A model generated the notes under the pieces. It was not told the origin of the DNA, searched no databases, and saw only the letters and a program-made list of their open reading frames with translations. A stretch of DNA of 64,000 nucleotides from Bacteroidales bacterium (GTDB lineage Bacteria > Bacteroidota > Bacteroidia > Bacteroidales > Paludibacteraceae): positions 1 through 64,000 of the forward strand of contig DUQS01000059.1 in assembly GCA_012837685.1 (NCBI GenBank). The letters run 5' to 3'. How positions within the stretch are numbered: position 1 is the first letter of the stretch; every line of letters starts with the position of its first letter. Positions 60,812 to 64,000 of the stretch are shown here, piece by piece. The translations under genes were made by a program, and so were the position numbers.

Positions 60812-61399
60812 TTATTCAGCGGCAGGAGCTTCGGGAGTTTCAGAAACTTCAGAAGTTTCTTCCGCTTTCGCTTCTGTTTCCGTTTCGGCTGCAGCTTCTT
60901 TGGCGGCTTCAGCAGCGGCTGCGGCTTCAGCTTCGAGGGCTTCCATACGCTTTTTGGACAACTCGGCGGCTCTAGCTTTGTTGATAGCTTTTTCAGCATC
61001 CAAACGAGCTTTTACTTTGGCAGCTTCCGCCGACTTGTTTTTCTCGCTAATGCCTGCCAACACTTTTTCTTTGTCGGCTTTCCATGCGTCAAATTTCTTT
61101 TGAGCGGCAGCTTCGTCAAATGCGCCTTTTTTCACTCCGCCTTGCAAGTGTTTCATCAGCATTACACCTTCATTGGAAAGAATGTTGCGTACGGTGTCCG
61201 TTGGTTGTGCACCAACGTTTACCCAATACAATGCTCTTTCAAAATTCAAATCTATCGTAGCGGGGTCGGTATTCGGGTTATACGAACCGATACGCTCAAT
61301 AAATCTACCGTCGCGTGGAGCTCTGCTGTCTGCAATTACAATGTGGTAATAGGCATACCCTTTGCGTCCATGTCTTTGCAATCTAATTTTAGTTGCCAT
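60812..61399 (-). CDS. rpsP: 30S ribosomal protein bS16 with long Ala/Glu-rich tail
   Basis: A 195-aa bS16. The first ~85 residues are the normal protein ([43 protein letters not shown]-type [12 protein letters not shown]). The remaining ~110 form a charged, then alanine- and glutamate-rich extension ending ETPEAPAAE that is probably helical then disordered. Such tails are usual in Bacteroidota S16 but absent in E. coli (82 aa). It helps assemble the 30S platform. Monocistronic, with its own promoter and terminator. Confidence 0.95.
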
Positions 61400-61580: not shown

Positions 61581-61588
61581 TACCTTTG
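61581..61588 (+). promoter_or_regulatory. -7 element of the aromatic operon leader
   Basis: TACCTTTG matches TAnnTTTG and lies 42 bases before the leader peptide ATG. No TTTG is found at 19-20 bases upstream. A small hairpin GTTGC-GAACA-GCAAC (61598-61612) follows just after the expected start of transcription. Confidence 0.6.
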
Positions 61589-61629
61589 CAACGTTTTGTT
61601 GCGAACAGCAACTAAAAATATAAATCTAT

Positions 61630-61704
61630 ATGAAATCTTTGTTTTTTAGCTACCTCTATTTTTACTTTTACATGAGCTGTAAGAGCAGGATTTCACATAT
61701 GTAA
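61630..61704 (+). CDS. Phe/Tyr-rich leader peptide of the aromatic operon
   Basis: A 24-codon ORF, ATG at 61630 and TAA at 61702-61704. Codons 5-14 encode FFSYLYFYFY: four Phe (all TTT) and four Tyr out of ten. The run ends only 12 bases before the upstream copy of a repeat that competes with the terminator. This is the layout of a classical attenuation leader. The ribosome would stall on these codons when charged tRNA-Phe or tRNA-Tyr is scarce. The product itself is not expected to have any function. It lies upstream of pheA, an aminotransferase and DAHP synthase, all in aromatic amino acid synthesis. Confidence 0.85.
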   Translation: MKSLFFSYLYFYFYMSCKSRISHM

Positions 61705-61754
61705 TTGAACCATTCATTTATTTTACCATAAATCCTGCCGAACAAGCAGGATTT
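61685..61754 (+). promoter_or_regulatory. Attenuator: mutually exclusive antiterminator and terminator
   Basis: Segment A GCAGGATTT (61685-61693, in the end of the leader ORF) and segment C GCAGGATTT (61746-61754) are identical. Segment B AAATCCTGC (61730-61738) is the complement of both. A:B is the antiterminator, B:C the terminator. A ribosome that reaches the stop codon covers A, which lets B:C form. A ribosome stalled on the Phe/Tyr run leaves A about free, which lets A:B form and transcription proceed to pheA. Confidence 0.8.
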
Positions 61755-61764
61755 TTTTATTTTT
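61730..61764 (+). terminator. Rho-independent terminator of the attenuator
   Basis: Stem AAATCCTGC/GCAGGATTT (9 bp), loop CGAACAA, followed by a T-rich tail TTTTATTTTTA. It stands before the first structural gene (pheA ATG at 61770), where a terminator only makes sense as a regulated one. Confidence 0.88.
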
Positions 61765-61769
61765 AATAT

Positions 61770-62609
61770 ATGCAAAAAGTAGCCATACAAGGTTTTGAAG
61801 GTTCGTACCACGACCAAGCGACACGCCTTTTTTTCGGCGATGCGGTAGAGATAGTGCCTTGCGACACGTTTAAAGCGTTGGTAGAAACGGTAAAAATGAA
61901 TCCCGAAATTTTAGGGGTCATTGCTATTGAAAACACCATAGCCGGAAGTTTGTTGCAAAACTATAACCTGATAAGAGACAACACTTTAACCATAGTAGGC
62001 GAACACAAATTGCGGATAAAACACAGTTTTGCCGTACTGCCCGGACAGACGCCGAAAGATATTACCGAAGTGCGTTCGCACTACATGGCTTTGCTGCAAT
62101 GCGAAGAATTTTTGTCGCAATACCCTTGGCTGCGTTTGGTTGGCTCGGACGACACGGCAAAAAGCGCCTTTGAAATTGCTCAACAAAAGCTAACGGGCGT
62201 GGCAGCCATTTGCAGCGCAAATTCGGCACGTAAATTTGGTTTGGAAGTTTTAGCCGACAGCATTGAAACCAACAAACACAATTTTACCCGTTTTTTGATG
62301 ATAGCTAACGTGAAAAAAGGGTGGCATTATGCAAAAAAAGAAGAGTGTAACAAAGCATCGCTGGTATTTTCGCTGCCACACGAAAAAGGCAGTCTCTCCA
62401 AAGTGTTGACCATTCTCTCTTTCTACAACATCAACCTGACAAAAATACAATCGTTGCCAATTGTAGGTCAAGAGTGGGAATACCTTTTTTATATTGATGT
62501 GCTTTTTGACGACTACCACCGCTACCAACAATCTTTAGAAGCTATTCGACCGCTTACAAGCAATATTAAAATATTAGGCGAATACAAGGAAGGTTCTCAA
62601 ACGATTTAA
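61770..62609 (+). CDS. pheA: Prephenate dehydratase
   Basis: Converts prephenate to phenylpyruvate for phenylalanine (279 aa; no chorismate mutase domain). The PDT domain shows AIQGFEGSYHDQA, GVIAIENTIAGSL, and the catalytic TRF at 173-175. The ACT domain (about 195-275) has GSLS (207-210) where GAL is usual, and QSLP (227-230) where many enzymes have the phenylalanine-binding ESRP. First structural gene of the attenuated operon; 12 bases before the aminotransferase. Confidence 0.95.
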   Translation: MQKVAIQGFEGSYHDQATRLFFGDAVEIVPCDTFKALVETVKMNPEILGVIAIENTIAGSLLQNYNLIRDNTLTIVGEHKLRIKHSFAVLPGQTPKDITEVRSHYMALLQCEEFLSQYPWLRLVGSDDTAKSAFEIAQQKLTGVAAICSANSARKFGLEVLADSIETNKHNFTRFLMIANVKKGWHYAKKEECNKASLVFSLPHEKGSLSKVLTILSFYNINLTKIQSLPIVGQEWEYLFYIDVLFDDYHRYQQSLEAIRPLTSNIKILGEYKEGSQTI

Positions 62610-62621
62610 AAAAGAAAAATT

Positions 62622-63788
62622 ATGAAAGATACAATAAAATGCGCTGATAGAGTTTCCGCCGTGCAAGAATACTATTTTTCAAAAAAACTCAAAGAAGTGG
62701 CGCAAATGAACGCCGAAGGCAAAAATATTATCTCACTCGGTATTGGAAGTCCCGATATGCCGCCATCGGAAACGACTGTTAAAACGCTGTGTAACAATGC
62801 TGTAAAAAATGACGTACACGGTTACCAACCTTATACGGGCATTCCCGAACTGCGCACAGCTTTTGCCAATTTCTACAAACGTTGGTACGGTGTAACCCTC
62901 AATCCTGTCAACGAAATACAGCCATTAATAGGCTCCAAAGAAGGAATTTTACACATCACGCTGGCTTTTGTCAATCCGAGCGAACAGGTATTGGTGCCTA
63001 ATCCGGGTTATCCCACTTATACGTCGTTAAGCACTTTATTGGGTGCAGAAGTGGTGCCTTACGATTTGACCGAAGCTAACAACTGGCTGCCCGATTTTGC
63101 AACATTGGAAAAAATGGATTTAAGTCGCGTAAAATTAATGTGGACAAACTATCCACACATGCCCACCGGCACCAACGCTACAATTGAACTGTACCAAAAA
63201 TTGGTCGATTTCGGTCGTCGCCACAATATTGTTATTGTTAATGACAATCCTTACAGTCTTATACTCAACAATAAACCGTTGAGCATTTTGCAAGTTGAAG
63301 GCGCAAAAGAGAATTGTATTGAGCTTAATTCGATGAGCAAAAGCCACAATATGCCGGGGTGGCGCATCGGAATGGCTGTCTCTAACAGCACCTACATTCA
63401 GTGGATTTTGAAAGTGAAAAGCAATATCGATTCCGGTATGTTTCGCTCGTTACAGTTAGCCGCAGCAGTAGCTTGCAACAACAGCGACGAATGGCACGAA
63501 ACAATGAACAATACGCTCTACCGCAAACGCCGAAAAATAGCCGAACAGATAATGGAAGCACTCGACTGTCGTTTCGATAAACAGCAAACCGGTATGTTCT
63601 TGTGGGGAAAAATTCCCGACAGTTGGAACAATGTAGAAGATTTGACCGAAAAATTATTGCACGAAAATCGAGTGTTTATAACACCCGGATTTATTTTCGG
63701 CAGCAACGGCTCACGCTACATCCGCATTTCACTTTGTTGTAAAGAAGAACAGTTACATGAAGCTTTGAAACGAATACAAGAAAAATAA
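62622..63788 (+). CDS. Class I/II aminotransferase (aromatic amino acid type)
   Basis: A 388-aa fold-type I PLP enzyme. It has SKEGILHITLAFVNPSEQV, the cofactor Asp D208 (VIVNDNPYS) and the PLP lysine K240 in ELNSMSKSHNMPGWRIG. Given its position between pheA and the DAHP synthase gene, it most likely makes phenylalanine or tyrosine from the 2-oxo acids with glutamate. An aspartate-type or prephenate-type activity cannot be ruled out from sequence. 33 bases before the next gene. Confidence 0.9.
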   Translation: MKDTIKCADRVSAVQEYYFSKKLKEVAQMNAEGKNIISLGIGSPDMPPSETTVKTLCNNAVKNDVHGYQPYTGIPELRTAFANFYKRWYGVTLNPVNEIQPLIGSKEGILHITLAFVNPSEQVLVPNPGYPTYTSLSTLLGAEVVPYDLTEANNWLPDFATLEKMDLSRVKLMWTNYPHMPTGTNATIELYQKLVDFGRRHNIVIVNDNPYSLILNNKPLSILQVEGAKENCIELNSMSKSHNMPGWRIGMAVSNSTYIQWILKVKSNIDSGMFRSLQLAAAVACNNSDEWHETMNNTLYRKRRKIAEQIMEALDCRFDKQQTGMFLWGKIPDSWNNVEDLTEKLLHENRVFITPGFIFGSNGSRYIRISLCCKEEQLHEALKRIQEK

Positions 63789-63821: not shown

Positions 63822-64000
63822 ATGAAATTTCAACCTATCAATTTACCCGATGTCGATATGAAGCGACCAATTGTCATTGCAGGACCATGCAGTGCCGAAA
63901 CCGAAGAACAAGTTTTGACAACAGCCAAACAGTTGGCAGCTAACGGTATCCGCATTTTTCGTGCGGGCATTTGGAAACCGCGCACTAAACCCGGTGGATT
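63822..64000 (+). CDS. DAHP synthase (probably fused to chorismate mutase), 5' part
   Basis: 59 complete codons before the window ends. The N-terminus KFQPINLPDVDMKRPIVIAG leads to the signature AGPCSAETEEQ and RAGIWKPRTKPGG of type I-beta DAHP synthases, which condense PEP and erythrose-4-phosphate at the entry to the shikimate pathway. In Bacteroidota this protein usually carries a C-terminal chorismate mutase domain; that part lies outside the window. It puts the entry enzyme under the same attenuator as pheA. Confidence 0.88.
   Translation, partial: MKFQPINLPDVDMKRPIVIAGPCSAETEEQVLTTAKQLAANGIRIFRAGIWKPRTKPGG

Follow-up and report, generated by a model that had tools for sequence, protein, structure and literature searches.

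Results

Operon and leader at the locus

The window, by which we mean the whole 64 kb stretch of Bacteroidales DNA that was analysed, carries on its forward strand the beginning of an operon for aromatic amino acids. Its first gene is pheA, encoding prephenate dehydratase (61770..62609, +; Pfam PF00800, E 1.3e-49, with a weak match to the ACT domain PF01842 just under the cut-off), followed by a class I/II aminotransferase gene (62622..63788, +; PF00155, E 7.9e-63) and by the start of a gene for a DAHP synthase-chorismate mutase fusion (63822..64000, +; PF00793, PF01817), which continues beyond the window. On the same contig, the fusion gene is completed past the window and tyrA, for prephenate dehydrogenase, comes next (L082 2423-3484 and 3522-4295; PF00793, PF01817, PF02153), with an MFS transporter gene after tyrA across a gap of about 100 nt. 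These Pfam matches agree with the pheA, aminotransferase and DAHP synthase genes that an earlier first-pass annotation had named here. The same four genes stand in the same order in Phocaeicola vulgatus (read by eye); a transposase-like ORF (L023 8047-8838, -; by eye) lies downstream of the operon in that species. On the other side of the locus, divergent from the pheA operon, is an ORF for a bS16-like ribosomal protein (60812-61399, -; named by eye), which has a long Ala/Glu-rich C-terminal tail.

Between these divergent genes lies an ORF of 24 codons (61630..61704, +), translated as MKSLFFSYLYFYFYMSCKSRISHM and read here as a putative leader peptide. Codons 5-14 (61642..61671, +) encode FFSYLYFYFY, that is, four Phe and four Tyr residues in ten codons, and since the operon makes both Phe and Tyr, its products agree with a leader holding codons for both. 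Among short ORFs that begin with ATG, it alone in the 64 kb window reaches eight or more Phe or Tyr in ten codons, and 20 first-order Markov simulations of 64 kb yielded neither such an ORF nor a 9-mer triple of the kind described below. A predicted Bacteroidota-type -7 promoter element, TACCTTTG (61581..61588, +; TANNTTTG), precedes the ORF, and transcription is expected to start just 3' of it, a prediction made from the sequence. Of the 104 loci in the comparison presented below, 84 have TANNTTTG in the 110 nt that precede the leader ATG; in random pieces the frequency is 5.9%.

Terminator, antiterminator and 1:2 hairpin

Three segments of nine nucleotides follow the control codons. Segment A (segment 2 of the classical scheme; GCAGGATTT, 61685..61693, +) lies in the last leader codons and forms the 5' strand of an antiterminator; segment B (3; AAATCCTGC, 61730..61738, +) can pair with either A or C; and segment C (4; 61746..61754, +), identical to A, is the 3' arm of a terminator. 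A Phe/Tyr leader ORF with identical 9-mers A and C and a complementary B is what the first-pass annotation had reported, and it is present as described, the A/B/C triple occurring only once in the window. The B:C fold has a free energy of -11.2 kcal/mol (z -5.0 against shuffles) and runs into a T-run (61752..61758, +) that ends 11 nt before the pheA ATG at 61770, so that an intrinsic terminator, backed by covariation, stands 5' of the first structural gene. The A:B fold (-14.6 kcal/mol, z -5.0 against shuffles) shares the B strand with the terminator and hence excludes it; covariation backs this antiterminator as well.

Folding the leader alone gives in addition a predicted 1:2 hairpin (61627..61699, +; -16.7 kcal/mol, z -2.4, with 6 of 200 shuffles equally good), in which segment 1 comprises the ORF start and the first Phe codons and segment 2 includes A. 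The predicted fold pairs GAAATC with GATTTC and so takes up part of A, which would leave A sequestered until it is freed by the ribosome or by B. Within it lies a small inner hairpin, CTTTTACA / TGTAAGAG (61665..61685, +; -6.2 kcal/mol, z -1.3), formed by the last of the control codons together with the bases immediately 5' of A. The first-pass annotation had held that the element lacks a separate 1:2 hairpin; the fold at 61627-61699, together with an outer helix that covaries throughout the class, contradicts this. A 1:2 hairpin is found at the control codons, and the fold and the family evidence place the element in the classical 1:2 / 2:3 / 3:4 scheme.

The same annotation had spoken of a translational attenuator, whereas the presence of an intrinsic terminator points to transcription attenuation. 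Control of translation, with the leader ribosome exposing or hiding the pheA start region or restarting at pheA, would suit the short distance of about 15 nt between terminator end and pheA in the window and some relatives. However, B:C folds strongly and leads into a T-run, as many as about 150 nt separate the terminator from pheA in other loci (L004, L025, L053), and at least about 65 nt intervene between the leader stop and the pheA ATG; taken together, these points make translational control very improbable.

Conservation and range

A leader rich in Phe and Tyr precedes pheA in 79 of the 81 loci of our Bacteroidales set (80 pheA relatives plus the window), with 6-10 Phe/Tyr in ten codons. 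The first-pass annotation had proposed looking for a conserved Phe/Tyr ORF upstream of pheA homologues in this order, and these loci bear it out. In 78 of the 81 the leader starts with ATG and has six or more Phe/Tyr in a stretch of ten codons; that of L065 starts with a non-ATG codon. As for the two exceptions, pheA in L075 comes shortly after another gene, and in L007 a promoter-like element lies right at the ATG. By a fixed rule, 73 of the 81 show a clean hairpin with a T-rich tail; L070 has leader and hairpin, with the T-run absent.

A wider set was drawn from 148 genomes across the phylum, in which the upstream regions of 40 pheA genes were read. Leader and terminator were found by the fixed rule in 31 of the 40 (L113, a poor call, among them), a proportion that is not a phylum frequency, as the loci were picked mainly by best match. 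Two loci that lack the leader, L100 and L106, have pheA directly 3' of an apparent aroA end (by eye), and the leader is also absent from L116-L122, six of which lie outside the class, L121 being a distant member of it. In most leader-less loci, then, pheA lies within another operon or outside the class. Three leader-positive loci (L092, L103 and L104) are outside the class by label. The element is present in Phocaeicola, Bacteroides, Paraprevotella, Alistipes, Dysgonomonas and many other genera.

Both the window and the 104 loci thus have a short ORF, the putative leader, with repeated codons for the products of the operon. The peptide is conserved only in its Phe/Tyr content, its tail differing in length and sequence. 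Trp codons occur as well in 24 of the 104 leaders (L018, L063, L095, L101 and 20 others), where they could bring Trp into the signal. An attenuator that responds to just one of the two amino acids, with the codons for the other serving RNA pairing or occurring by chance, has some appeal, as the U-rich codons of Phe and Tyr resemble each other, the control codons double as a pairing strand in some folds, and the last control codon, which is usually Phe and is nearest to A, should weigh most. Yet at least two Phe and at least two Tyr codons are found in 103 of the 104 leaders across sequences of low identity, the order of Phe and Tyr shifts freely among lineages while the mixture is kept, and the operon makes both amino acids; we therefore consider the sensing of a single amino acid unlikely.

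Elsewhere in the source genome, stretches at hisG and thrA were examined and a comparable leader was not found, nor was one found at ilvD in a scan for coding runs and terminators. A small ORF (MKKLVLFLAVATAVAFASCGAKEEAAEE...) lies 5' of hisG (L123, about 1009-1185); it is Ala/Glu/Val-rich and lipoprotein-like, with its own terminator next to it. Other YFYFY codon runs occur in this genome at about the frequency of the reversed control pattern, and two of them, inspected by eye, had no terminator structure after them. The Anth_synt_I_N domain (trpE) was not found in the source genome, which is rated 100% complete, while 14 of 14 control genomes gave a match; a Trp auxotroph or a divergent gene are possible explanations.

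Covariation of the pairings

Segments A, B and C and the helices were located by a fixed rule in the 104 loci, and pairing between each locus's own strands was compared with that between partners swapped among loci, leaving out L033, L036, L064 and L077, whose automatic terminator picks were poor. With 25 representatives of less than 72% identity, own partners surpassed swapped ones both for B:C (z 15.1, 0/200 swaps as good) and for A:B (z 12.0, 0/200), values from which shared ancestry is not fully removed. In alignment A1 (44 loci), double changes likewise exceeded those in shuffles, shared ancestry again being only partly removed: 26 cells against 8.7 for A:B and 26 against 6.2 for B:C, with 0/500 shuffles as high in either case. 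The covarying A, B and C arms that the first-pass annotation had suggested looking for are accordingly found.

The outer helix of the 1:2 hairpin joins a strand just 5' of the Phe/Tyr run (e.g. AACACATA) to one just 3' of A (TATGTGTT), and throughout the family both A and the control codons lie within it. Swap tests gave z of about 5.1-5.2 (0/200 and 0/300 swaps as good; shared ancestry not fully removed), against 1.6, 1.2 and 0.0 for control strands that were shifted or taken from upstream, and the signal holds when Bacteroidales (z 3.8) and the remaining loci (z 3.2) are each taken alone. Changes on both sides of the helix include TTATAAC:GTTATAA (L029), TTATAGC:GCTATAA (L054) and CAAATACAAC:GTTGTATTTG (L107). 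For the inner hairpin, the swap test with the 25 representatives gave z 2.8 (2/200 as good); its covariation in A1 is not above shuffles (324/500 as high; 44 loci), and 80% of cells are paired.

Position of A and of the ribosome

Segment A starts 5-18 nt (mode 11) 3' of the last Phe/Tyr codon in 104 of 104 loci, a narrow range explained in part by the rule, which sought A within 36 nt of the run. The end of the stop codon, by comparison, varies over 47 nt in the same loci, the extremes being 4 nt before and 43 nt after the start of A. The ribosome covers about 10-12 nt past its A-site codon. With a footprint of this size, a ribosome stalled on the last control codon would leave A just free, and one that has moved a few codons further would cover it. 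We take the fixed spacing of A as the strongest single argument that the position of the ribosome on the control codons matters.

The spacing also bears on a simpler account, in which a conserved small-protein ORF precedes an ordinary, constitutive terminator and nothing switches. A terminator alone would account for B and C, and the ORF has a promoter-like element of its own. But A covaries with B and stays at a fixed spacing from the Phe/Tyr run, the peptide is conserved in Phe/Tyr content only, and the leader stands upstream of pheA every time in these sets; we judge an ORF and terminator without switching extremely improbable.

We modelled the ribosome by folding the transcript up to B, ending before C, with a footprint blocked at each codon; footprint size and equilibrium folding are assumptions of this model, and the probability of A:B can slightly exceed 1 because neighbouring pairs are counted. 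In the model, P(A:B) is about 1 with the ribosome stalled at the last control codons, and about 0 with the ribosome at the stop codon in the window and in 49 loci whose stops lie at most 10 codons past the run. The stalled value is higher than that at the stop in 73 of 73 loci. In 24 loci with late stops, the modelled mean P(A:B) at the stop is 0.54, a ribosome there often leaving A free, so simple masking would not be the whole story in these loci; re-formation of the outer 1:2 helix behind the ribosome is a candidate for the additional factor. Without a ribosome, the model for the window favours A:B (0.97), which suggests that termination as the default rests on translation or on kinetics.

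Discussion

Our analysis of the sequence and the folding model suggest that the element very probably works by ribosome-mediated transcription attenuation, with charged tRNA-Phe and tRNA-Tyr as the signals sensed; stalling, readthrough and the sensing of both amino acids are what we infer from its anatomy. RNA polymerase would transcribe the leader with a ribosome trailing on the 24-codon ORF. When Phe and Tyr are ample, the ribosome would pass codons 5-14 and cover A, the B:C terminator would form and the operon would be off; where the stop lies far downstream, the 1:2 hairpin would re-form behind the ribosome and B:C would again act as terminator. When charged tRNA-Phe or tRNA-Tyr is scarce, a ribosome stalled on the run would block segment 1, with A just past its leading edge. 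A:B would then pair once B emerges, C would be unable to build the terminator, and the operon would be transcribed through tyrA. Conservation and covariation thus support the core of the first-pass reading, namely a ribosome-controlled attenuator with a dual Phe/Tyr leader and A/B/C logic.

More tentatively, and with somewhat less than even confidence, we propose that this is an ancestral, class-wide attenuator of the Bacteroidia that reads Phe and Tyr through one leader. With a covarying outer helix around both A and the control codons, the stop codon may have been free to shift, to before A or far behind it, with the switch kept; in late-stop lineages, termination would come about through the re-formed outer helix and not through masking by the ribosome.

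The element would be a clear example of attenuation by a leader peptide beyond Proteobacteria and Actinobacteria, the phyla to which, by the account of a 2010 survey, such attenuation had been confined before that survey added Firmicutes (PMC2965389). Bacteroidia are a major part of the human gut flora, and little is known of how they control the synthesis of aromatic amino acids. A single element in cis offers a testable control point; it would also be a dual-sensor form of this textbook mechanism, and it is a candidate for a new Rfam family. The first-pass annotation had remarked that attenuators of this type are much less described in Bacteroidota, and the literature covered agrees, with a qualification: a transcriptome study of Flavobacterium psychrophilum describes, 5' of pheA, a structured element that is conserved in Flavobacteriaceae and has no Rfam hit, and it gives strong indications that amino-acid operons there are attenuated through leader peptides (PMC9723704). 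Short ORFs in long 5' UTRs of B. thetaiotaomicron have been likened to leader peptides, in a paper whose main text names neither pheA nor phenylalanine (PMC7366714). A description of the Phe/Tyr leader and its class-wide range was not found in the literature covered, mostly papers available without subscription. In the 64 kb window, no Rfam covariance model matched at its gathering score, Phe_leader included; a T-box riboswitch likewise had no Rfam match there, a conserved coding leader standing in its place.

The Flavobacteriaceae element concerns the same gene and belongs to the same class, but in the accessible part of that paper it is given without a stated anatomy, control codons or a range past the family (PMC9723704). 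A close likeness is to the attenuators of E. coli pheA (pheL) and of the trp, his and ilv operons, which share with the present element a leader with control codons, mutually exclusive 1:2, 2:3 and 3:4 pairings, an intrinsic terminator and a cognate biosynthetic operon. The control codons of E. coli pheL are for Phe only. Here, in contrast to pheL, the leader mixes Phe with Tyr codons, and tyrA and DAHP synthase are also part of the operon; and unlike in the E. coli class, it is the distance from the control codons, and not that from the stop codon, that sets the place of segment A.
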